Positions 3,690 to 62,739 of a DNA stretch of 64,000 nt are shown one piece after another; positions within the stretch are counted from its first letter, which is position 1, and every line of letters begins with the position of its first letter. Under the pieces are notes generated by a model that saw nothing but the letters and a program-made list of their open reading frames with translations, did no database searches and was not told where the DNA came from. This stretch comes from Obelidium mucronatum. Taxonomy: Eukaryota > Chytridiomycota > Chytridiomycetes > Chytridiales > Chytriomycetaceae. The stretch is from NCBI GenBank assembly GCA_025765595.1, contig JAIVFH010000009.1, positions 1-64,000 of the forward strand. The letters run 5' to 3'. Position numbers and translations under genes: made by a program.

Positions 3690-4168
3690 CTTGGTGCAGC
3701 GGTCAAGGCGCTGGCTTTGAGAGCGTTATGCCCCTGGTTCGAATCATGGAAACTCTTTTATTTTAACAATAAAGATTCGGGTTGAAATATTCAATCTGTA
3801 CAACTTATAGTTTATTTCTAATCTCTCTAAAGTAGTGTAAGTGATATTGTATCTTTATGCGTAATACTCAACAGAACTTGGCTTGAATAATTCAATCCGC
3901 AATTTTATTGTGATGAATATAAAAATTCTCCAAGCTTACCAGGAAACTCAATAATAAAATTGATTTGCATTGATGTTGAGTATTAATATGGCATATAAAA
4001 GATACAATATTACTTGCACTGCTTAGCAGAAATTAGATATATACATAAAAGTTGGATGGATTGAATATTTCAACCCGAATCTTTATTGTTAGTATAAAAG
4101 GAGGTTCTGTGATTCGAACCTGGGGCGTAAACCTCTCAAAGCCAGCGCCTTACCCGCTGCACTAAATA
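3690..4168. mobile_element. Foldback element with inward-facing tRNA-like heads
   Basis: The two halves are inverted copies. Arm 3690-3805 pairs with 4051-4168, and the inner part 3835-3874 pairs with 3975-4021, leaving a centre near 3930. Each arm starts with a tRNA-Ser(TGA)-like sequence: A boxes TGGTGCAGCGG (left) and TAGTGCAGCGG (right, minus strand) match TRGYNNARNNG, and B boxes GTTCGAATC match GWTCRANNC on both arms. The tRNA-like head is followed by AATAAAGATTCGGGTTGAAA, the same tail motif as in the element at 103-1281. Transcription from either end by Pol III would give a hairpin RNA (inference). Confidence 0.75.
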
Positions 4169-5213: not shown

Positions 5214-5417
5214 TTTGGAAAATGAAAATTTTCATGAAACCCTAAGTCTAATCCTGAGCTAATGAGTATAAAACCCTACGTCTAAGCCTGCTTCTAACCC
5301 TGCCCTGAGGAGAATGACCGCCCTTGTCCTGTTACAGCCACTTTAAAGCGTATGTGGTTTTTGTTTTTTTCCATTACATTGTTAATTTGTTATTTGCTGA
5401 CACAATAACTGGAAATA

Positions 5418-7465
5418 GGGAAACGTGTTAGCAAGTCCGGTGGCTCATGGACAGCGGCTTATATCCAACAAATATCAGAAGACTTGAGAAATGACTTTGT
5501 TATCAACGGGGTTCTTAAGACGCAAAGGTATGCAAGGTTCTTCGGCGTTGTCTTTGGTTCTGCCACTCATTGATTATATTTAGATGTACTTTATGCTCTC
5601 AAGACAATTACTCGAAAGGGATTGGAGTCTGGGGCCCAAATACTTCAACCGGGACTTTCAAGTCCCACCTCAATGGTCACGGCAAAACTCCACCACAAAA
5701 GGGAGACCAGCCATCAGTTGTACCAGCAGCAGGAGTCAAATGGCTGGATACATCTATGCAGTCTCGTCACCTGGACTCAGCTGTTGCAGAATACATGGTC
5801 ACCTGCGTTCTGTCTCACAAGCACGCCGAGTCTGCTGGTTTTCGCCATTTCATGTCTGTTGCCAGCCCGGCTTATCATGTCAAGTCATCGGAGACCTATG
5901 TTCGCAGGATTTTCTCAATGTATATTGTCCTCAAGTACCACATGCAGATCATTTTGTCCTTGGCCGAGACAAAAAAGTCTATTACTTTTGATGGTTGGAC
6001 CAATGCCATGCTCCGAGGGTATTACGTTGTCACACTTCACTGGATTGATTCTCGTTACGGCACACTATACGAGTGTGTTCTTGACTTTTTTCATGTAACT
6101 CCTGGCAAGAACGTGAGTCAACGTATCTCTGAATACATGATTGGTATGCTGAATGGGTGGGGCCTCTTAGAAGACTTGCTGGCAACAGTCAATGATAATG
6201 GAGCTGATGCGGTCAAGTCTGCCAAGCTTATCGGTTGTGAACTATTTATACTAGCTGGCCATGAAATACTACTGGAGTCTCACCAGCTGCGCTGTGTTAC
6301 ACATACGTTGCAACTTTCAGTGAAAGCGGCCATGTCTCTGATTGATGATGCTGTCTTGGCACTACGGGAGCTGCTTGCAAGTATTCTGCAATCCAAAGTC
6401 CTTCGTGACTACTTTCGTACAGAATGCAATGCTGCACTGAATGTTAACCGTCAAGAGCCACCATCACTTGATTCCCCAACGCGATGGAATTCAACTCATG
6501 CCATGCTCGAGGATTGTCTCCAAGTTCGGGATCCATTGGACCACACAGCTGGACGATTTGGACTTGATCGCATCAGTGCAGAGATGTGGGATCGAGTTCA
6601 ATCTTATGCAACATTTCTCCAGCCATTTGCCAAGATTTCAACACTTCTTGGGGCTTCAACAAAGCCAACTCTTTCATCAGCTCAAGCCGGGATTGAACTG
6701 TTCATTAAGGCTGCAAATACCGGTGTTGGTTCTCGAAATACAACTATTAGTGATGCTGCTGAATCTATGCTACGTCCTCTGATTGAATATAAACCTATCT
6801 TGGACAGTGAACCTTCCCATATTGCAATGTTTCTGGATCCAACAATTGTTAAACGGACAGGCTCCTTGGAGTTTCTACATCGAAAGAGCATTGTTGAGTC
6901 TGTGTTCCGGAAATATGCAACTAGTCTTGATATGGGTGTGCCTCCTTCAACTGTATCTGTGTTGTCAACTGGCTTCAACTTGATTGATATGCTGAATGAA
7001 TCCATGATCTCTGACAATGATTTGGATCTTGTTGGTGATGCCGTTTCTGAGCTGGAAGGATTTTGCAGCTTGAAAGCTGTGGCATCTGGAACTGATATTC
7101 TTGCATGGTGGTTCTCTCAACGCCGACAGTACCCTATCTTGTACTCAATGGCTTGTGATTACTTGGCTGTACCTCCTGCATCGGTTGCCTCCAAAAGAGC
7201 GAATTCACTTGCTGAGAGGATCTTTGATGGCCGCGAGACTTTGAACTCAGATCTATTCAAGGCTGAAATATGTTGCAGTTCTTGGTTGAAGGTCATTGGT
7301 AAACACAATCTTTTGTGCAGCGCTAAAGATGTCATAAAATTGCCAACTGACTATCAAAATGCAGTCATTGCGTTGACATCTGGGGACAATCCACAAGTTG
7401 ATCTGGAAAAGTGGGCAGAATTGGACACTGTGATAAAGTATTGGCTGGAAAAAAGGAGCAACTGA
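5418..7465 (+). CDS. hAT-family transposase with BED zinc finger
   Basis: The long exon from 5584 encodes a hAT superfamily transposase of about 630 residues. A BED-type finger is visible at its start (CTLC, then HLNGH), and is completed by an upstream exon ending at 5527: splicing out 5528-5583 (GTATGC to TTTAG, 56 nt) reads straight into the first Cys of the finger. The middle holds the RNase H-like core with SITFDGWTN and the CVTHTLQL and SPTRWNST motifs typical of hAT enzymes. The C-terminus has the hATC dimerisation signature, with DILAWW, then YP-LY-MA-DYLAVP and ASVASKR. The 5' exon has no Met before a stop at 5406, so another upstream exon is needed and the start is unknown. No stop interrupts the long exon; it may be a live or recently live element. 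Confidence 0.85.
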
Positions 7466-7473
7466 ATACATTT

Positions 7474-7479
7474 TAATAA
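7474..7479 (+). terminator. Poly(A) signal AATAAA of the hAT gene
   Basis: AATAAA lies about 10 bp after the transposase stop, at the expected place for cleavage and polyadenylation of this short 3' UTR. Confidence 0.4.
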
Positions 7480-7487
7480 ACAATTAA

Positions 7488-7604
7488 ACCGACTCTGAAC
7501 CGCGACTCAAACTGCGGTTTCAGACTCATAAGCGGTTCCAAACCGCAGCTTCACTTTCCCCTGCGGTTTGAACCGAAACCGAACCGAACCGAACCGGGAA
7601 AGGA
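7488..7604. repeat. hAT right-end subterminal repeats (AACCG motifs)
   Basis: AACCGC/GCGGTT occurs repeatedly in both orientations, followed by five consecutive GAACC units ending in CCGGGAAAGG. Dense AACCG motifs next to the end are typical of hAT elements. No matching GGTTCGGTTC block was found on the left (5100-5440), so the left end is either eroded or outside what I can recognise, and no target duplication could be assigned. Confidence 0.55.
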
Positions 7605-7636
7605 CCTATTGGGGGGGCAAGGTGAGTTGCCAGGGG

Positions 7637-7644
7637 GGCTGAAC
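7637..7644. repeat. Left target-site duplication GGCTGAAC
   Basis: The octamer immediately outside the left inverted repeat is identical to 12946-12953 immediately outside the right one. An exact 8-bp duplication at both outer borders is direct evidence of a transposition event. Confidence 0.9.
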
Positions 7645-7834
7645 CAAGGGTGTATGAAACAGGGTACATCACGACAAAAAATCTCCACAATTTTTTGGTT
7701 TGATGGTCTCCCAATGTTGAATGCCATTTTGCACTAAGGGCGTGGAGAAAAAAGTCCCACCCAACTAAACTGTGCACTACTCCACCACCAGCCATCGAAA
7801 CGCCGTCAAACTCCGCACATAGTAAGATAATTAA
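7645..7834 (+). repeat. Left terminal inverted repeat of the P-like transposon
   Basis: Reads inwards from CAAGGGTGTATGAAACAGGG. It matches the reverse complement of 12763-12945: almost perfect for the outer 73 bp, then about 80 percent with small indels, ending near AGTAAGAT. Confidence 0.9.
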
Positions 7835-7935
7835 CATATTTACATGATAGAAGCCTTTGTAAGTGTATATTTAAACAGTTAAGGGCGCTGTCAACCAGAG
7901 AAATCCCAAATTTGCAGCTGCCGCCTTCGCACCAC

Positions 7936-10900
7936 ATGGATCACAAGGTAACTCTCAGAACTTGTTAAGGAAAACTATTTCATGCGCTCAGCAGAATCTC
8001 AGAGTCGTACGTTTGATTTTAGGCCTGTTTCGAATGCGGTCAGAAAAAGAAGAATCGCGCCACGGGCGTTCCGTTGCAGCACCATCCCCACAATCCAAAT
8101 GTTCGGATATGCTTGCGCTGTAAACGTCAACTCTCGACGTCAGTTGTTTCGGAAGAAAGCCGTCAAAAGGCACAGAGCCGGATTACCAAGAATACAAATC
8201 GTCCATTGCCGAATATCTTGGCTGTCTCAACACAAACTCATTTAGATGTTTCAACAGTCTTACAGTCTACCAGTCCATTGTATTGCCAGGGATTTTCATC
8301 AAAAGTCGACCTCCTTGCCAAGTTTACGGCGGAAAGTATTCTTGCAGCGGGATTTGTAAAAACTAAGAGTGGTTGGAGATCAACCAATTGCGAGTTCAGA
8401 ACTGGGAGCGATGGAAAGCGGTGTGTCGTTTGTCTTCGCATTTACAAACACATCGAGCGTGTTGAGAAAAGCAAGTCTTTGATTTTGAAACCATCCATGG
8501 AAGACAAGTGGTATCCATCGCTGAATAGCTTGAGTCAAGCTGTAGTATCACGCTTGGCGAAGGGGGAGGATTGTAGCAACGTTGCCAAATTCATGGATTT
8601 GTTTGGGATTCCCTGGATTGAGGCAGACGCCACGTATTTTATCGCCTGTCCCGGAATGGTTCCACCAAAGGGGGTTGTTCTTGCGAAGTTTGTGGAGGTA
8701 TCCAACCATCGATATACAACTGAATCACAAGGGAGATTACGACACAAGGACTGTCCACGCTATAGAGTTCAAAAGATCTTTCGAAAAGACATGAACTTAT
8801 GCTGTCTGTTTTGTACTCAAATGGTGCGCCAGGTGGAGGATTCTATCCAAGAGTCGCATGTTAATCGTGAAAACCGAGTTGACCCACACAGCCGAATAGC
8901 TGTCTCGCTTCTCACTCCTTCCTCTATGATTGAACGAATCGCTCGAAAATCCGTTCAGTACAATCGAATTATTCGAATGTTGAAGAAGGCTTCTATTTTT
9001 CGAGATACGTGGATCAAAACCCAGCAGTCTGCTCAAAACATTCCCCTTGCTGACGCAAGCAAAGAGAAACTGGCATGCATGGTTGAGTTTGTGTGCAAGC
9101 ATGTAGAGTCCAAAGAAATTTTGAAGGGCATTTTGCTTGCCCATCTGGAGAAGGAAATATCAGAGGTTGAATTGAGCGTAGCGGAAAAGAATCACATTCA
9201 GGAACAGCTGTCGGAGGAATCCTCTTCTCTTGTGAACTTTACGGTTGACCAGCTGAAAGCTGAAGTTTTGAATTTCAGGGGGAAGGGCAAGCAAATGAAA
9301 TGGAATCCGGATTCTGTTTTGCTGTGTCAGCTCATTGTTGGAAGGTCTCGCAAACTGCGCAATGATCTGGTCGGAGCTGGAATGCACCTCCCGTCTCATT
9401 CGACAATGCAGAGATACAAGTCGGAGATGAAGGTACAAGTCTCGCCATCAGTGATTTTGTTTTCTAAACGCAGCCGTTCAGACAAGTGAAGGGTCCGACA
9501 GTATTATGTATCTGGAAGCGCGAAAGCGTCTTCGTCATTCCAGTCGTGTTGATGGAACTGTGAAATGTGATGAAATGAAGCTGCAACAGGGCCTTGTTTT
9601 CAATACTGCTACTCTTGAGCTTGAAGGTTTTGCCGACGAACCAGAAGAGCTGAATGAAACATTAATCACAAGATTGTTTGATCCAAACTCTTCCCCTGCA
9701 ACTGAATCACCAGCTAAATACGTGAATCAGTTTCAGTTTGTTTCAATCAATGGGGATTTCTCCTGTCTTGCTTCCTACTACTTCAATGACGGTTCCTTGA
9801 CCGGTAATGAGATCAAAGCACAATTCAGGCATGTTGTGCTATGTTGCCAATTAGCTGGTTTCGATGTTTTGGCTTTCAACGTTGATGCCGGTGGAGGAAA
9901 CGCGAGGGCATTTACAGTAATGGTTGAGAAGCCAAAGTACACAGAAGCCCAATCCGCCATATGGGAGCCCAAATATGTGCGATTAATAGACCCGTTCTCG
10001 GATGATCCGGGAGACTTCATATTTGTCTTCTTTTGCTCTGTCCATGTCTTTAAAGCCGAGAGGAATGTGTTTTATGAAACCAACTTCCAAAAACGAGTTC
10101 TTTTAAACTCTGTGGATGAGCCTATTAACTTCCAAGTAATCAAGGATTGTCTTGCAAGGGACAAAGAGCGTCGAAATCCAGTGACTGATCTGACCGATGA
10201 TGCAGTAAATCTGGATCAGTATTCCAATATGAATGTGTTTCTGGCGCTCTCGGTGTTTAGTCATAAAGTCATTGCAGAGATAATGAACTGGGCCTGTGGA
10301 CAACTTAGTGTTGGCCTTCTTCCGCAACCAACAGTGGAGCAATTGATGGACAAGAGCCGATTTCATCCGTATCCTGGCTCCCACAATCGTTATATTGGAG
10401 TATTGCTGTTTCAGGTGCTGTTAATCATAAATTTTTTTGGCCTATAGACAGCTGAAATAATTGTAAAGGTTCGCGAGCTTCAGAAACGCGAATGGGTATC
10501 ATCTCTGCTGAATCCTCTTCCCACCCTGGAATTCATGGTTGTGAACCATGAAATCTTTGTTGAAATGTTATTGAATAAGTATTTCAAGTTCACACCTGTT
10601 AACATTGATTCTGTGCAAGAGTTCTTGGGCAGTCGTTTAGAGTACTTCAAGAACTGTAGCACACGCGCAGCCGCTCGATCCAATGGTGTCAAGGATGCTC
10701 CCAAGACTTTCATTGCAGAATCGCCAACCTTGCGGAATCTCTTTCTTCTTGTGGGTGGTTTGCTTCACTTTTGCCGATACTCTTTTCTCCGTGGTCATTC
10801 CGTCATTTTGCCTTCCACATTCTCTACCAGTTGCTTAGAAAGCGTCTTTGGTGTTGTTCGATACTACGGAGCAGTTACGCCACACTTATATCGTGCGTTT

Positions 10901-12527
10901 CAAACCAACAAGCAATTTTCGGACTCTATAGCTACACGAAATGGCTTGAAAAATAACCCAATGTACGCTGATGACCACAACATTGTTCGGCAGGCACAGC
11001 AGCAAGTTGATTTTTCTACTCCAACAGACGCCGCGTCTAATACCACAGAAATGGTGGCTAACTGGAAATCGCGCCTTTTACTTTTGGCTCAAGCCTCTGA
11101 GTTGCTGCAAGACAAGCTATCAATCGTTCCTCCTGAAAAGGGAAATCTCAAAAGCAATTTATTTCCAGCCTTGCTGCAACAGGGGCCGATTCTTCTGCTT
11201 GTAAACTCCTCCAGATTTCACCAGTACTTGCGAATTATTCCTCTTTCTTCTTTGAAGGATTGGTTTGACTGCCTCATTGGAAGTCAGCCACACTTTGACG
11301 CTTTTGAAAGAATTGTGAGCGATATCTTTGGGGAATGCCTTGAATTAATGGATAAATGGAGTACTCAAACGGTTTCCAAGAACAAGCTGGTGAATTTGGG
11401 AACATTTTTCAACGATTGGTTTGATGGAGATGGAATGAGGACGATGTTTTCAAGACTGACTCCGGATTTGAAGGGAAATCGTATGTTGTATGCAATTGTA
11501 TTTGAGAGCTGCAAATCTGTAATCAAGAAGTTCATCAAGTTATCAATTCCTTTGCCATCAAACAACCCTTCAAAACCGGAGCCCTCTCATGCAGAAATTC
11601 TTTACGAAATGCATTCTTATGGAGGTTGGGCAATTCAGAATCTTCGAAAGAAATATAATGCCGCTAGAGGACGATGTTCCGAAAATAGCTCTTCTTGGCA
11701 CTTTTGGAATCTGTTGCTCCAGGTTTCCGAGTCTTGGAGAGTCTTAAAACGCGACCTTTTGGATGAAAATAACCAACTCCTGTATCCTACTGCTTTCCAT
11801 AATATGAACCAAGGTGGGCTCACGTATGCTCCTCCATTTCTGCACAAATTCTTCCAGAGGATTCTTCGATTGATTGCGGAGAATGTCGCTGTAGGTGCCA
11901 ATGGTCGAAAATGTTTACAAGTTGCGTGGGCTGTGAGCCATAATCAAACAGTATAAACAGGAAGTATTGTCTCGGTACAGAAACAGCTTAGGTAAAGTTA
12001 ACTTCAGAGCACATTTGAAAGCTGTAACAGGTGGGAAGGGAGGGAAGGCGCTTAAAACTGTTAAAGTGAAAACTGCCGGTATTGTGATTCCGAGTCAGAA
12101 AGTTTATTGCCATTGTAAAAAGGGGGAAGATGGCGAAATGATCTGCTGTGGGAAATGTGGGGAGTGGTTCCACTATAACTGTGTGGATATGACAGAGGAA
12201 AAGGTGGAATCGTTGCATGGAGAGGAGTACCATTGTATACAGTGCGAGTTGGAGCAATTGGAAAAAGAAGGCGCATTTGATGATACAGATCTGGATCTGG
12301 ATGATGAAAGCCTGCCAGTTGTCGAAATTGAAGATGAGTTTATGTTCACAGATGGCCCTAAAGAAGCTATAGTGAAGTTTGCGGGGGAGAACGGTGATAC
12401 AAGAGAGACAAGGAATATTCTCGTGAAACCGTCAAGCTTGAAGAGGAGGAGGGACGACCTGTTGGCAGACCCAGCAGAGGCACAGACTCTCAGAAGATCT
12501 GAAAGATCTAAAAATATGAAGAAGTAG
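7936..12527 (+). CDS. P-element-like transposase with C4 zinc finger and C-terminal PHD finger
   Basis: Best model: exons 7936-7947, 8023-9432, 9482-10414, 10448-11890 (or to 11932) and 11961-12527, all phase-compatible, giving about 1454 residues. The N-terminus has a C4 finger created by splicing (CFECG ... CLRCK), followed by more Cys pairs. Residues near 450-475 (motif LPSHSTMQRY) resemble the segment before the catalytic core of THAP9/P-element transposases. The core shows CDEMKLQQGL (first acid), FNVDAGGGNARAF (second acid), FFCSVHVFKAERN, and STSCLESVFGVVRYYG, which resembles the NQDxLENxF region of P transposases. The final exon encodes a PHD finger (CHCKKGEDGEMICCGKCGEW, then HYNC and CIQC) followed by acidic and basic tails. 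The family assignment rests on motif order and on the 8-bp duplication. Introns of 75, 49, 33 and 70 (or 28) nt are inferred; a separate PHD gene starting near 11967 is the alternative. Confidence 0.72.
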
Positions 12528-12762
12528 TCTGTAATGCAGGGGTCACAGAGCTGATTGATACAGGAAACACCAACTTAGCAGCATTACATCGTACGACAAT
12601 AATATTTTGCATAGATCAAGTTATGATGTATGGTATAAAGTTGCGAAAGTTTCGCTGGGATCGGTGTGGTGATAGACGAACAACATGTAATCGGCGAGAT
12701 CGGCAAGCTGCTGTGCTAGCCACGGCCAAAAAATCAACAAGTCAGCCAAAAGAACACAATTT

Positions 12763-12945
12763 GCAATCAATAATCTTACTCTGTGCGAAGTTTGACGGCG
12801 TTTCGATGGATGGTGGTGGTGTAATGCGCACTTTGGTTGGGCGGGACGTTTTTCTCCAAAAGTAATGTGAGAACATTGGGAGACCATCAAACCGAAAAAT
12901 TGTGGAGATTTTTTGTCGTGATGTACCCTGTTTCATACACCCTTG
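12763..12945 (-). repeat. Right terminal inverted repeat of the P-like transposon
   Basis: Reverse complement of the left repeat, ending ...TTTCATACACCCTTG at 12945. It begins about 235 bp after the transposase stop codon. Confidence 0.9.
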
Positions 12946-12953
12946 GGCTGAAC
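12946..12953. repeat. Right target-site duplication GGCTGAAC
   Basis: Identical to 7637-7644 and directly abuts the right inverted repeat. Confidence 0.9.
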
Positions 12954-29433: not shown

Positions 29434-31878
29434 TTATTTCTTGTCCAGCTGTTGTTTTACCAGAAGTACTTCCTTCCTGCATCGCGGACACTTCCACCTT
29501 CCATCTTTCATTAAGCCTTTAACAGTATGATGTTGAGATTTAGGAATTGTTTCTGGATCAACATATCCCACGCACTCTACATGAAGCCAAATATTACAAA
29601 AGTCGCACGCGACTGTGTTCCAATAGTCCGATTCAGGCAAATCACAGATACAATAAATGACATCGTCTTCTGGGTCCATGGCACGTTTCATCACCTCAGG
29701 TGGTAGTTTCGTCAGTATTTTCTGCGTGACAATAGGCTCAGGAGTGGGTGGTTCAGGTTTGACCTTCTTCTTTTTAACCGGCATGAGGACTTTCTTGATC
29801 ACTTTTCGGAATTGCTTTGGAGCGCGGCGAGCACGGAATTCGCGTCCATTCACGATTCGCGGCAGGTCTTCGACTTCATCCGGAATTTCCTCTTCCACTT
29901 CCACTTCCATTTCAATCATTTCTACTTCGTCACCACCAGCTTTCGCCATTCGCGACCGCAAAAGTTGCTCAAGTTCTTCTGCCTTCATCGAAAGCCGGGT
30001 TAAGGAAGAAGGATGTGAGGATGCCCCTTGTTCTTGTGATATAGATGCATGGGACCCTGATGGAATAGCAGCAGGCCGACGTCCACCAGTTTTGCCCTCC
30101 GTTCTGAACTTGTCCTTTTCCTCCTTCACTCTCCTCTCTTCCCGCCTTGCCAGCTCTGCTTCCTTTTCCTCTTCCAAAACTCTATCCCAATCCACATCCT
30201 GCATACCTCCAATGACAATCACATTGTTGGTCAGACAATCCATAAGTCCATTTCCACCACGCGGTCTTCCCCTCTTTTTCTTTTGCCCATCGCGGCCTCC
30301 AAACCTGACTCCCCGACGCGCTTGTCGAGATACAAGACGTAGTGTTGTCATGTCTTCGATCCTTGGATGATTAGGAAGCCCGAATATGACTGCTTGGAGA
30401 AATGGATCCGTGAATCCAAACTGATGTGGACCTGAAACTCGCGTTTTTGAGTTCTGTTTTGGCCAGCTGAGAAAAAAGAAGCTTCAGCGGCGAAAAATTA
30501 TTTACCTTCCCCAAGACAGTCATGCAAACTTCTGTCCATGGGCTCGTGGGAGATGGGCCCGTGAATTCTGGGAGATCTGGTTCATCATCTGCTACAACTT
30601 TGAAAAGAGGTCCATCCTCTCCTTCTTCTATGGTCATCGTCCAATCGTATCCATATTGACTTTTGGTTGCTTTGAATCCGACAGGATACTGATGTCGGTA
30701 ACGGCACTGAATATAGAGCTGCTTTTGAACAACAACTCAACAATATAGGTTTTGTAAACCCCTTACATGCCGTTGGCTCCAGTAATCTTCACGCTTCTTC
30801 TTATCAGAAACTATTTCTCCGATACTCCAAATGGTCAATTTCGTGTATCCAAGAGTGAAAGGCGTATTGACTTGAATCACATCATTGTTGAGTCCACCTG
30901 CCAAATCAACTCCAGCACCAAGTTTTCTTTTCCGGATTTTGGACATGCCGATCATGCCAGCTTGATCAAAAATATCATCATCGTCATTTTCGCTGTCACT
31001 GGGATCGCTGAAAGCTTGAGTATCCACAAGTTGTTCCGGATCATTCCCAAGTTCTGAAGACCTTCCGCCTCGGATCTAACCATTTTCAAGATATCAATTA
31101 AGGAAGCCCGCATAATGAAAGAGTGAAGACGAAAAGTATTAATCAAACCAGTTCAGGTCCCTCGCCTTGCAACCGTTTGCTTCTTTTCAATTCCATCATT
31201 TTTTGGTATCGATCCACTGCATCTTCATCCTCATCCTCATCATCAACAGGTCTCCTCTTCTTTTTGTGGCTTTTCTTCGGCTTTGGAGTCAAATCTTCAA
31301 CGGATGATCCCGTTAAACTGAAGGAGGATTCCTTCAAGACACCCAAACTGAGAAGAACTGCTCGGTTCTGTGCAACACGCGCTTCGCGCTCTAATTCATA
31401 TGAAGAGACTTCATTGTCGGCGATTCTATGTTTTTATATCAAAAAAACACGCCTTCAAACTCAGAAAAACACGTACATTGGTTTCCATAAAATTGGAGGT
31501 CGATGTTTAGATTTCACCGTGGCTGAAGTTGTGCTGTTGCTATCGTTTGAAAGAAAAGATGTCGAGCTGCTGGCTCGTGGGAGGGAGGTTCTGTGTGGTC
31601 ACCAAGTAGCCATATTCAGTTCCACAGTATTTAAGACTGGAAAAAAAAAATTCATACAAGTGAGCTGGTGTTGCTTTTCCAGATACGGATGAAGTTTCAG
31701 CCAAAGTCTCGTATTTTGTTGCAGTGATGTCAGTTGAGGGGTTCCCCTCGGCCTCCATCTCCTCGTCATCACTCCAGTTAATTACTTCATCTTGTTCCAC
31801 TTCTTCAATTTCCTCGCGATCGTTAGTTTGCTCTTCTACTGTAAGGTCCGATTGTTGAGGCGGGTTGTTATCGGCCAT
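29434..31878 (-). CDS. FYRN-FYRC-PHD chromatin protein
   Basis: At least five exons. The N-terminal exons are acidic (EEIEEVEQDEVINWSDDEE) and basic (KPKKSHKKKRRP). The FYRN part is TLGYTKLTIWSIGEIVSD ending in the YPVGF motif, split by an intron near 30660-30770. The FYRC part is GPLFKVVADDEPDLPEFTG, SPTSPWTEV, then across the intron at about 30467-30506 VSGPHQFGFTDPFLQAVIF. A lysine-rich region and a C-terminal PHD finger follow (CICDLPES, CDFCNIWLHVECVGY, CPRC). FYR domains occur in MLL/trithorax methyltransferases and TBRG1. This protein has no SET domain, so it may be a histone-mark reader subunit (inference). The stop at 29434 is 90 bp before the start of the seven-helix gene. Confidence 0.78.
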
Positions 31879-43662: not shown

Positions 43663-44108
43663 ACTCCTGTTTGTGCTTGACGTGTTCTTAGTTTTTTTCT
43701 TTTTAGGAAAGAAGCGTTAAGGGAGGCAAGGCAGTTGTGGCGTGTTGAGGGTTGGAATGACGCCATCGACCACAAATTGACTTACGGGACAGGAATGATT
43801 ACATCTGACAATAAGCAGACACTAAACAATTCCGCTATACCGAGAGTTTGAATGCAGTATTTCCTTCTTAGTTCTAAAAAACAAGGTTTGACAAGTGCTG
43901 GAAGAGTAATTATGTCAATTCTCATAATTGTCCCCATCCCCATTCAGAAAGTAACTTGAAACCCGTCAAAAATGGCCATCACAGGTCAAGAGCGGAGTTG
44001 GAGTGGAGAGGCAAATGGATTTAATCAGTTTCTGACAAGCCTGCGAAAACCGATGAAACCAAGAAAACGCCACCCTGCCGCTTAAATTTCCGTTAGATAA
44101 GTAGTCCG
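43663..44108. promoter_or_regulatory. Divergent promoter region
   Basis: 446 bp between the MFS gene (minus) and the repeat protein (plus). No element was recognised beyond a short AT-rich core. Confidence 0.35.
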
Positions 44109-45446
44109 ATGAAGCTGGCACCTCTCTCTCTGTCTTTTCTCGCAGCGCTGGGACCAACCCTGGCCACCACGTATGCTCCTGTTCCACCACCAAGCGTGTC
44201 CGGCACTGGTTACAGCGTGCCATCTTCGACGAATGTTCCACCAGTGAATTCAGCTACTTGGTCTAGCACCACTGTTCCGGGGCCTCCAACGGTGTCATCT
44301 TCTGGAAATCCACCTCAGCGGTCTACCACCAGTGTGCCAGGACCTGTGGTCTCTAGTTCGGCAACGTATGCGCCTGTTCCACCACCAAGCGTGTCCGGCA
44401 CTGGTTACAGCGTGCCATCTTCGACGAATGCTCCACCAGTGAATTCAGCTACTTGGTCTAGCACCACTGTTCCGGTGCCTCCAACGGTGTCATCTTCTGG
44501 AAATCCACCTCAGTGGTCTACCACCAGTGTTCCAGGACCTGTGGTCTCTAGTTCGGCAACGTATGCTCCTGTTCCACCACCAAGCGTGTCCGGCACTGGT
44601 TACAGCGTGCCATCTTCGACGAATGTTCCACCAGTGAAGTCAGCTACTTGGTTTAGCACCACTGTTCCGGTGCCTCCAACGGTGTCATCTTCTGGAAATC
44701 CACCTCAGTGGTCTACCACCAGTGCGCCCGGACCTGTGGTCTCTAGTTCGGCAACGTATGCGCCTGTTCCACCACCAAGCGTGTCCGGCACTGGTTACAG
44801 CGTGCCATCTTCGACGAATGCTCCACCAGTGAATTCAGCTACTTGGTCTAGCACCACTGTTCCGGTGCCTCCAACGGTGTCATCTTCTGGAAATCCACCT
44901 CAGTGGTCTACCACCAGTGCGCCCGGACCTGTGGTCTCTAGTTCGGCAACGTATGCGCCTGTTCCACCACCAAGCGTGTCCGGCACTGGTTACAGCGTGC
45001 CATCTTCGACGAATGCTCCACCAGTGAATTCAGCTACGTGGTTTAGCACCACTGTTCCGGTACCTCCAACGGTGTCATCTTCTGGAAATCCACCTCAGTG
45101 GTCTACCACCAGTGTTCCAGGACCAGTAGTCTCTAGTTCGGCGACGTATGCGCCTGTTCCACCACCAAACGTATCCGGCACTGGTTACAGCGTGCCATCT
45201 TCGACGAATGCTCCACCAGTGAATTCAGCTACGTGGTTTAGCACCACTGGTGCAGGACCAGCGGTGACTTCCTCCTTGACAAGTACCACTGGATCACCAG
45301 CTACAACAACTGGAACTGCACCATTGACCATTGTGAATGGAAAAAATTGCAATCCACGTGGAGCAACCGCTTGCAGTGGTAAATGCACGTGTTCTTTTGT
45401 GGTTATGATGCAAATCTGGTCTTGTGCTGGCATTTCAGGATGTTGA
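44109..45446 (+). CDS. Secreted repeat protein, 65-residue units, Cys-rich C-terminus
   Basis: 445 residues. Signal peptide MKLAPLSLSFLAALGPTLA, then about 5.4 near-identical units of 65 residues beginning TYAPVPPPSVSGTGYSVPSS and rich in Pro, Ser, Thr and Val, so probably O-glycosylated and extended. A non-repeated C-terminal 60 residues contain seven Cys (CNPRGATACSGKCTCSF, then SCAGISGC) and resemble a small wall-binding or capping domain. No GPI-anchor signal is seen. Such layouts are typical of fungal wall glycoproteins or adhesins; function inferred only from architecture. Confidence 0.8.
   Translation: MKLAPLSLSFLAALGPTLATTYAPVPPPSVSGTGYSVPSSTNVPPVNSATWSSTTVPGPPTVSSSGNPPQRSTTSVPGPVVSSSATYAPVPPPSVSGTGYSVPSSTNAPPVNSATWSSTTVPVPPTVSSSGNPPQWSTTSVPGPVVSSSATYAPVPPPSVSGTGYSVPSSTNVPPVKSATWFSTTVPVPPTVSSSGNPPQWSTTSAPGPVVSSSATYAPVPPPSVSGTGYSVPSSTNAPPVNSATWSSTTVPVPPTVSSSGNPPQWSTTSAPGPVVSSSATYAPVPPPSVSGTGYSVPSSTNAPPVNSATWFSTTVPVPPTVSSSGNPPQWSTTSVPGPVVSSSATYAPVPPPNVSGTGYSVPSSTNAPPVNSATWFSTTGAGPAVTSSLTSTTGSPATTTGTAPLTIVNGKNCNPRGATACSGKCTCSFVVMMQIWSCAGISGC
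44169..45236 (+). repeat. 195-bp coding tandem repeat, about 5.4 copies
   Basis: Units start at 44169, 44364, 44559, 44754, 44949 and 45144, spacing exactly 195 bp. Copies differ at only a few percent of positions, implying recent expansion or gene conversion. Confidence 0.95.
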
Positions 45447-60234: not shown

Positions 60235-62739
60235 TGATGCTCTCACCTGCAAGTCTCGCGCTTCTCAATCCAACCATCTCCACAATCGACTTTACCAGCT
60301 TTCTGTCACCCAAAGTCGTTCCTGGAATCTCCAAAAGCTCTTCCAAAATCTGCTTCACATCCAACAAGTCAAAACTATAGTCGCGTTCAATTCTGGACAT
60401 GTATTGTGTTTCGAATTTGTCTTTTGTTTGGAGAATCGGTGAACCGCCAGGCGAGAAGGCAAAGATTTCTCCCGTCTTGACGAGATCTACGAGAACGAGA
60501 CGCACAATTTCACCCAAGTACATTCCGGAAATGAGTTGTTCAAACGTGTACGAGCCGGGTCGGGCAGTTTGACGGTCCAATTTGAGATCGTATTTTGTGC
60601 GAGGGATTGTAACTTGATTATCGTCAAACTTGACGTATTGTGTGTTTGGGGTTGAGTTGAACCAACAATTAAACAACATTAAAATGATAGAAAATAATAC
60701 TCACACCACCCCATTCCATGTTGATCAGCATTTCCTTGATACCAGTGCGGTTTCCTTTGAATTTGTGAATGTTTGATATGTCTTCGACGTAGGCGCAGTT
60801 GGATCCAGTGCCCAGAATCACGCCAACATGAGTATCTGGTTGAGTGTATGCCAATGAAACAAGTGTTCCAGTTGTATCGTTCACGAGTGCAGTCACATTG
60901 ATGTTGAGGTTCTATTGCAGGCAGCACGAGGAGGGGGTGATTAGTATGGTGATAAGTATTTCAATGGGATCTGAAATGGAGGAACTTGAAAGGAAGGGGT
61001 ATTATCCGCCTTCGGCGGAATGCAATCGCCTTCGGCGGTATATCCAAGAAGAAAAAGAAAACATTATCCGCCTTCGGCGGTATATTCAAGAAAAAAAAAG
61101 AAAACATGATCCGCCTTCGGCGGTATATCCAATAAGAAAAAAAAGAAAACATGATCCGCCTTCGGCGGAATGAACCGCCTACGGCGGTAAATTCAAGAAA
61201 AAAAAAAAGAAAACACGATCCGCCTTCGGCGGAATGCAACCGCCTCGGCGGTATATCCAATAAGAAAAAAAAGAAAACATGATCCGCCTTCGGCGGAATG
61301 AACCGCCTACGGCGGTATATTCAAGAAAAAAAAAGAAAACATGATCCGCCTTCGGCGGAATGAACCGCCTACGGCGGTATATTCAAGAAAAAAAAAGAAA
61401 ACACGATCCGCCTTCGGCGGAATGCAATCGCCTTCGGCGGTATATCCAAGAAGAAAAAGAAAACATTATCCGCCTTCGGCGGTATATTCAAGAAAAAAAA
61501 AGAAAACATGATCCGCCTTCGGCGGTATATCCAATAAGAAAAAAAAGAAAACATGATCCGCCTTCGGCGGAATGAACCGCCTACGGCGGTAAATTCAAGA
61601 AAAAAAAAAGAAAACATGATCCGCCTTCGGCGGTATATCCAATAAGAAAAAAAAGAAAACATGATCCGCCTACGGCGGAATGAACCGCCTACGGCGGTAT
61701 ATCCAAGAAGAAAAAGAAAAAATTATCCGCCTTCGGCGGAATGAACCGGTACATCCAAGAAGAAAAAGAAAACATTATCCGCCTTCGGCGGAACGAACCG
61801 CCTTCGGCGGAATTAGAAAACCCACGTTTCGAACAAAAGCAGCCTTCAACAACTCAACACAATCCTTCCCAACGACACCAGAAGCAGTAAAACCTTTAGT
61901 CCAAATAATCAAACTACCAGAATTGATACTAGTCTGATCAACAGGAAAACTAAAAGTAAAACCCAGATTCCAAACTCTCTTTGGATCAACATCAGCGGAA
62001 TCGGGATAATAATGTTCCTTCAAAAAAGATTTGACACAGGTAGCAATAAAATCAAAGAGGGTATTCCCATCGCCTGTTCTAGCAGCTTCACTGATTGTGA
62101 ATTTCGATTGACGGTTTTGCGCGTTTCCTTTCCCGTCAAAGGTGGTTTCACAGACACGAAAGTTTGTGCCGCCCAAGTCAAGGGCCAGGAAGGAGCCCTG
62201 TTCTTTGCCGGAGGGACGACGCGTGACGTGAGACGGCAGCATTTTGATGGCTGGATGGAGAAAGCCAATAAAAAAATCAAAAAACACGTGTTTTAATCAT
62301 CGTCCGAGATAAGAGCCGGAATAAGGGGCTGAAACAACGACAGAACTCACGGCCGCCGTCGCTCTCCAGCCCGCTCTTCATGTCGGCCAGAATCTGCTTC
62401 ACGATGTGCTGCAGCCGCTCGACGGGCAGCGCAAACATGGATCGCAGGCGCGCGACCGTCTCCGGCTTGGCGTCGTCCGCCTGGCTGGCATCGAGCAGCG
62501 ATTGCGCAATCGGCGCCGCCGTTTTTGTTTTTGTTTTTGTTTTTTTTGTTTTTGTTTTCTGCGCTTTCGACAGCGGCGCCGCGAGGAGCAGCGACGACGT
62601 CAGGAAAGTCAGCGTGACGCCTGGCTGGCGTTGTTAGGCGCCGGGCGTCGCATGCGGGGACTCGGGGACACAAACCGACGCCAAAGCCGTACAGGAACTT
62701 GTGCAGCTCAGAGGGACTCATCTCAAACACAGACGCCAT
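59922..62739 (-). CDS. Hexokinase with N-terminal hydrophobic anchor
   Basis: Six or seven exons. The N-terminus (MASVFEMSPSELHKFLYGFG, then, after an intron at about 62613-62679, VGVTLTFLTSSLLLAAP) forms a hydrophobic helix, followed by a Lys-Thr repeat linker encoded by AAAAAC repeats. Catalytic half: FLALDLGGTNFRVC (phosphate 1), LGFTFSFPVDQTSINSGSLI with WTKGF (sugar-binding signature), VNDTTGTL (catalytic Asp), GVILGTGSNCAYVE, MEWGG, and AQDGSGQGAAL (adenosine motif) at the end. Every active-site motif is intact. Introns of note: 60912-61825 (914 nt, packed with hairpins) and one near 60158-60246 with a 30-T tract on the coding strand. The anchor suggests attachment to mitochondria or another membrane, as in some plant hexokinases (inference). 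The 5' exons are very GC-rich. Confidence 0.93.
60203..60232. repeat. 30-A homopolymer in hexokinase intron
   Basis: A run on the plus strand, hence T on the transcribed strand; it lies close to the 5' splice site rather than in the usual pyrimidine-tract position. Confidence 0.8.
61005..61812. repeat. Array of about 24 GC-rich hairpins inside a hexokinase intron
   Basis: The unit CCGCC-TTC-GGCGG (or with TAC in the centre) is an inverted repeat of 5+5 bases around a 3-base loop. About 24 copies occur, many in pairs separated by AATGAA or AATGCAA, alternating with A-rich spacers such as TATATTCAAGAAAAAAAAAG. A higher-order repeat of about 410 bp is visible (61020-61190 recurs at 61430-61600). 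Complementary changes do not break the stem; the loop varies between TTC and TAC. All copies lie in the single oversized intron. Confidence 0.95.
62521..62560. repeat. GTTTTT microsatellite in hexokinase coding sequence
   Basis: Six-base repeat that reads AAAAAC on the coding strand and encodes alternating Lys-Thr. Its length is not constrained by frame only if changes come in threes; the frame is intact here. Confidence 0.8.

Follow-up and report, generated by a model that had tools for sequence, protein, structure and literature searches.

Transposons of the P superfamily were reported from rust fungi in 2011; the available part of that report calls the superfamily previously unknown in Dikarya and describes elements in Puccinia, none of them intact, as well as autonomous and non-autonomous elements with 8-bp target-site duplications (TSDs) in Melampsora (PMC3164196). 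The animal systems Drosophila P, THAP9 and zebrafish Pdre2 carry a THAP domain at the N terminus and have short terminal inverted repeats (TIRs), which the available part of PMC7776569 gives as 31 bp in Drosophila P and 13 bp in Pdre2. Here we analyse a P-like element at positions 7645-12945 of a 64,000-nt stretch of DNA from Obelidium mucronatum (contig JAIVFH010000009.1); this whole stretch is what we call the window. Position numbers are window coordinates on the contig (C9), and the genome searched comprises 48.3 Mb in 694 contigs. With a probability of about 90%, we interpret the element as a P-superfamily DNA transposon of the cut-and-paste type, present in a chytrid-like fungus as two broken long copies and degenerate derivatives. 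It resembles Drosophila P, THAP9 and Pdre2 in its TNP-like RNase H core, its 8-bp TSD, the apparent D-D-E order and a long insertion before the presumed third acid; it differs from them in having no detected THAP domain, TIRs of about 185 bp and a C-terminal PHD finger. The likeness to the rust-fungi elements P-1_PSt, P-1_MLP and P-2_MLP of Repbase (the superfamily, a fungal host and, in Melampsora, the 8-bp TSDs) is by published description. An earlier interpretation made from the letters of the window (the sequence-only reading) had implied that a P element in a fungus would be new; given the 2011 report from Puccinia and Melampsora it is not, and P elements of fungi or chytrids may have been described in other earlier work as well. 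What is unusual is the layout, which combines a C4-type zinc motif, a predicted transposase of about 1,520 residues, long inverted repeats and a DIDO1/ING-like PHD finger.

The boundaries of the element are exact. The 8-bp sequence GGCTGAAC stands at 7637-7644 on the left and, identically, at 12946-12953 on the right. The left TIR occupies 7645-7839 on the + strand, with 193 of 195 bases the same in the second long copy (copy 2), and the right TIR lies on the - strand at 12769-12945. An outer pair of arms (7644-7718 and 12872-12946; 75 nt, 99% complementary) and an inner pair (7743-7832 and 12769-12858; 90 nt, 88% complementary) join through small indels into a single terminal repeat of about 185 bp. 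Both the flanking duplication and the inverted termini are thus as the sequence-only reading had described them. The termini begin with CA, as do those of Pdre2 and of Drosophila P.

A genome-wide search with the TIR, which the sequence-only reading had proposed as a way to find further copies and empty sites, finds copy 2 and remnants on contigs C12 and C18; searches with the joined flanks find uninterrupted sites. The counts of terminal-repeat matches are lower bounds: a 69-base terminal query has at least 6 matches (both ends of the window copy, both ends of the copy on contig C20, one C12 end and one C18 remnant), and a 196-base query adds one more on C12. Copy 2 (contig C20, L007 730-6149; 5,420 bp) is 97% identical to the window copy, from which it differs by 138 mismatches and four indels, and it is flanked by its own exact 8-bp duplication, GGTGGAAG. 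The C12 locus is a short derivative whose pieces are 79-87% identical (about 20% diverged) and whose frame is broken; the 8-mer at its right end has no second copy within the locus read, and we claim no TSD for it. In the assembly, a search with the exon-3 protein (E up to 0.01) and one with PF21787 (E up to 0.001) match the two long copies only. When copy 2 is removed and its flanks are joined, the joined sequence has 33 matches in the genome, two of them its own flanks; in 12 of 12 places read among these 33 the site is uninterrupted and GGTGGAAG is present once. The host repeat around this insertion encodes a reverse transcriptase (PF00078 in L024). The joined flanks of the window copy have 24 matches: its own two flanks, 12 within the first 87 bases of the query, and 10 that cross the junction and include 34-36 bases to the left of it. 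All 10 junction-spanning sites were read, and GGCTGAAC is present once in 3 of them and GGCTGAAT, with one base different, in the other 7. Because uninterrupted versions of both insertion sites exist in other copies of the host repeats, the element has transposed in the past, and these sites together with the exact duplication around copy 2 argue that the element is not a chance arrangement. They document past movement of the P superfamily in a chytrid-like genome. The C18 remnant is a decayed 35-base piece of terminal repeat (L009 1052-1083), with CACCCTTG about 25 bases beyond it.

By profile score, the N half of the RNase H-like core is homologous to that of P-type transposases. PF21787 (TNP-like_RNaseH_N, cut-off 24.6 bits) gives 33.6 bits for the window copy, 34.8 bits for copy 2 and 30.4 bits for the core read through intron 3. 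The motifs on which the sequence-only reading had based its assignment are present (CDEM at 9566-9577, DAGGGN from 9884, and CLESVFG), and the assignment itself is upheld by the PF21787 score and the 8-bp TSDs, with no KDZ or hAT model listed. By position, the acids are the Asp of CDEM (9569-9571), the Asp of DAGGGN (9884-9886) and, as a candidate for the third acid by position only, the Glu of CLESVFG (10838-10840). We count about 307 residues between the second acid and this candidate; the corresponding spacing in Drosophila P, from D303 to E531, is 228 residues according to the available part of PMC8230255, so the greater distance would fit a longer insertion domain here.

Two protein searches of 5.8 billion sequences scored the 7,984 and 7,994 top word-sharing candidates and are not full inventories; among the matches listed, each has one relative, and a third search of these sequences listed none. 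P0001 is a 784-aa protein from a JGI metagenome, with 30% identity over 53% of the query; the search that listed P0002 did not list it again, though part of P0001 was in the query alignment. P0002 (HDU98_003550), a hypothetical protein of 583 aa from Podochytrium sp. JEL0797, has 41% identity over 48% of the query and a PF21787 score of 31.5 bits. CDEMKLQ, DAGGGN and CSxHxxKAxRN are common to both proteins and the window copy. Podochytrium belongs to Chytridiomycetes, and by sequence identity this unannotated chytrid protein is the nearest named relative among the matches listed. It differs from the element in its shorter length and in showing no PHD region, its gene model ending just beyond the position of intron 3; P0001 also ends earlier. 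Scans of IMG/VR gave no relative of the element.

The predicted gene lies on the + strand. Exon 1 (7936-7947) supplies a predicted start codon and 4 codons in all, in an open frame joined to exon 2. Intron 1 (7948-8022; 75 nt, GT-AG) is 93.3% identical between the copies, against 97.3% for exon 2, and keeps its splice ends. Exon 2 (8023-9432) encodes a C4-type zinc motif at its N terminus and a Cys-rich region, and is 37% identical to P0002 over 8833-9459. The splice ends of intron 2 (9433-9481; 49 nt) are also kept between the copies, and P0001 aligns with exon 2 up to residue 473 and with exon 3 from residue 477, which leaves no space in that protein for the intron 2 sequence. Exon 3 (9482-10414) holds the N half of the RNase H-like core and the start of a putative insertion domain, as placed by PF21787 and PF21788. 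Intron 3 (10415-10447; 33 nt, in phase, with TAG at its 3' end) is 86.7% identical between the copies and includes a 3-nt indel. Exon 4 (10448-12527) encodes the remaining transposase, with the candidate third acid, the PHD finger (12108-12245, + strand) and a charged tail. Introns 1-3 are 86.7-93.9% identical between the copies, compared with 97.1-98.0% for exons 2-4, with GT and AG kept; as predicted junctions, three introns are supported, not four. Both long copies are broken, at different places. In copy 2 the damage lies in exon 3, which has lost 17 bp and carries a TGA. The window copy, which the sequence-only reading had called complete, has a frameshifting 140-bp deletion after 11934 relative to copy 2, and since its exon-4 frame stops at 11954 it is not complete. 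Copy 2 retains the 140 bases, and its exon 4 is open throughout, for 739 codons, up to the stop that both copies share. From the lengths of both copies, an intact gene is predicted to have 4 exons and to encode about 1,520 residues.

Several results weigh against placing the element in the P superfamily. PF21788, the GTP-binding insertion, reaches 18.3 bits with a cut-off of 24.8, and PF21789, a 35-position model of the C part of the RNase H fold with the catalytic Glu, is not detected in the element. P0001 scores 23.0 bits for PF21787, below the cut-off. A sequence search of the PDB with exon 3 gave no match, and the profile matches of the core in the PDB are unrelated proteins (steroid receptors and RNA polymerase I subunits). 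AlphaFold models of the 817-residue core and of exon 3 alone, built from 3-row alignments, have a mean pLDDT of about 36 and are unusable. The available part of PMC1562414 states that all P proteins then known carry a THAP domain, and next to that statement the missing THAP counts against a P element in the narrow sense: exon 2 gave no THAP match (E up to 1), and neither did two of its pieces (E up to 10). We therefore do not place the element in the THAP-bearing subgroup of animal P and THAP9. The same result fits the statement, in the available part of PMC7776569, that THAP domains occur in animals only and are absent from fungi. The dN/dS between the copies is 0.36 over 1,465 codons, with 44.2 synonymous and 57.8 nonsynonymous differences (by our arithmetic about 22 and about 80 are expected from the same sites under neutrality). 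This value speaks for our reading and suggests that the coding part was under purifying selection, but it is uncorrected for biased base composition and for drift after the copies were broken; it leaves out exon 1, two stop-holding codons, and any codon that a gap or the deletion touches. A transposon of another superfamily, KDZ/Zisupton or hAT, that is P-like in short motifs only would also produce 8-bp duplications, which are common to hAT and Zisupton-type elements, and would sit well with the PF21788 and PF21789 results. We find it very improbable, since both copies and the Podochytrium relative score above the curated cut-off of PF21787, and Pfam scans of exon pieces at E up to 1 or 10 list no KDZ, hAT or THAP model, nor any KDZ or hAT model for exons 2-4 or the core read-through. 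The HMMER filters in these scans drop most weak matches; a neighbouring hAT transposase was caught by the same scan.

Two further alternatives concern how the P-superfamily gene is put together. The sequence-only reading joined five exons in frame, which would leave the window copy intact with a short spliced fourth intron, and 7 of the 19 GT-AG combinations listed, each with a fourth intron of 19-55 nt, do leave a frame open over 1,459-1,471 residues. However, the proposed intron (approximately 11913-11980) coincides with the 140-bp deletion, copy 2 has its extra bases exactly there with the frame open throughout, and the consensus-like GTGAGC donor at 11933 is only a product of the deletion junction. 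We give the five-exon gene scarcely any credence, and prefer the four-exon gene with a deletion. The C-terminal PHD finger that the sequence-only reading had proposed is borne out by PF00628 (33.4 bits, cut-off 24, model positions 1-47 of 47). It could derive from a host gene that a single copy captured or became fused to, outside the family, and on this point the relatives are uninformative, as P0001 and P0002 stop short of the PHD region. Such a capture has very little chance of being correct: copy 2, inserted elsewhere, has the finger in frame, and the decayed C12 derivative retains the DNA of the PHD stretch, broken frame notwithstanding. Because that derivative holds it, the fusion predates the split of the subfamilies.

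The best solved match to the PHD finger is that of DIDO1 (4l7x, E 2.1e-9), followed by ING2, Spp1 and PHF8, all of them chromatin readers. Its Tyr, Met and Trp align with those of DIDO1 and ING2, and may serve in the cage of an H3K4me3-reader type of finger. A second PHD-finger frame lies in the window outside the element, at 29434-30483 on the - strand (PF00628 23.9 bits, just below the cut-off).

The mechanism that we infer starts from an intact spliced gene of 4 exons that would yield the transposase. Its N-terminal zinc and helix modules may bind the long terminal repeats, and an RNase H-like D-D-E site with a putative third acid, interrupted by an insertion domain that possibly binds GTP, would cut both ends. 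The transposase would then join these ends to target DNA at cuts staggered by 8 bp, and the C-terminal PHD finger probably binds the histone H3 tail and would tether the complex to chromatin. For the tethering step taken alone we put the odds somewhat short of even; the chromatin bound may be H3K4-methylated. The wider proposal is more tentative, and we regard it as rather unlikely: a separate chytrid P lineage in which a C4-type zinc module replaces THAP, a PHD finger is fused to the transposase, and insertion is steered by H3K4-methylated chromatin. If true, such targeting would be a route without description for P elements in the literature cited here, as far as the available parts of these papers go. 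In this element, a finger of the chromatin-reader type is part of a P-type transposase. If that finger steers insertion, the element could be compared with animal P elements for their preferred targets, and with other transposases and integrases that read chromatin. PHD or PHD-like fingers C-terminal of a DDE domain are described in the available parts of reports on Ginger1-9_HM (a PHD finger; PMC2836005) and piggyBac (a PHD-like Cys-rich domain; PMC8086355); these belong to unrelated DDE superfamilies.

To the left of the element, the stretch 5306-7608 carries a hAT transposase gene (PF05699) and also occurs on contig C235 at 98.9% identity; the first 84 bases of the window-copy flank query lie in it. 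As this stretch ends 28 bases left of the P-element duplication, two elements stand side by side. The window gave no match in Rfam (gathering scores) or in a tRNA scan. A near-continuous, MITE-like foldback of about 475 bp at 3691-4165 is made up of nested inverted arms of 69, 55 and 47 nt that are 81-89% complementary. An open frame at 44097-45446 is built from a 195-bp unit repeated about 5.5 times (96% matches) and is Ser/Pro/Thr-rich with a Cys-containing end. A tandem array at 61106-61810 includes the palindromes CCGCCTTCGGCGG and CCGCCTACGGCGG.

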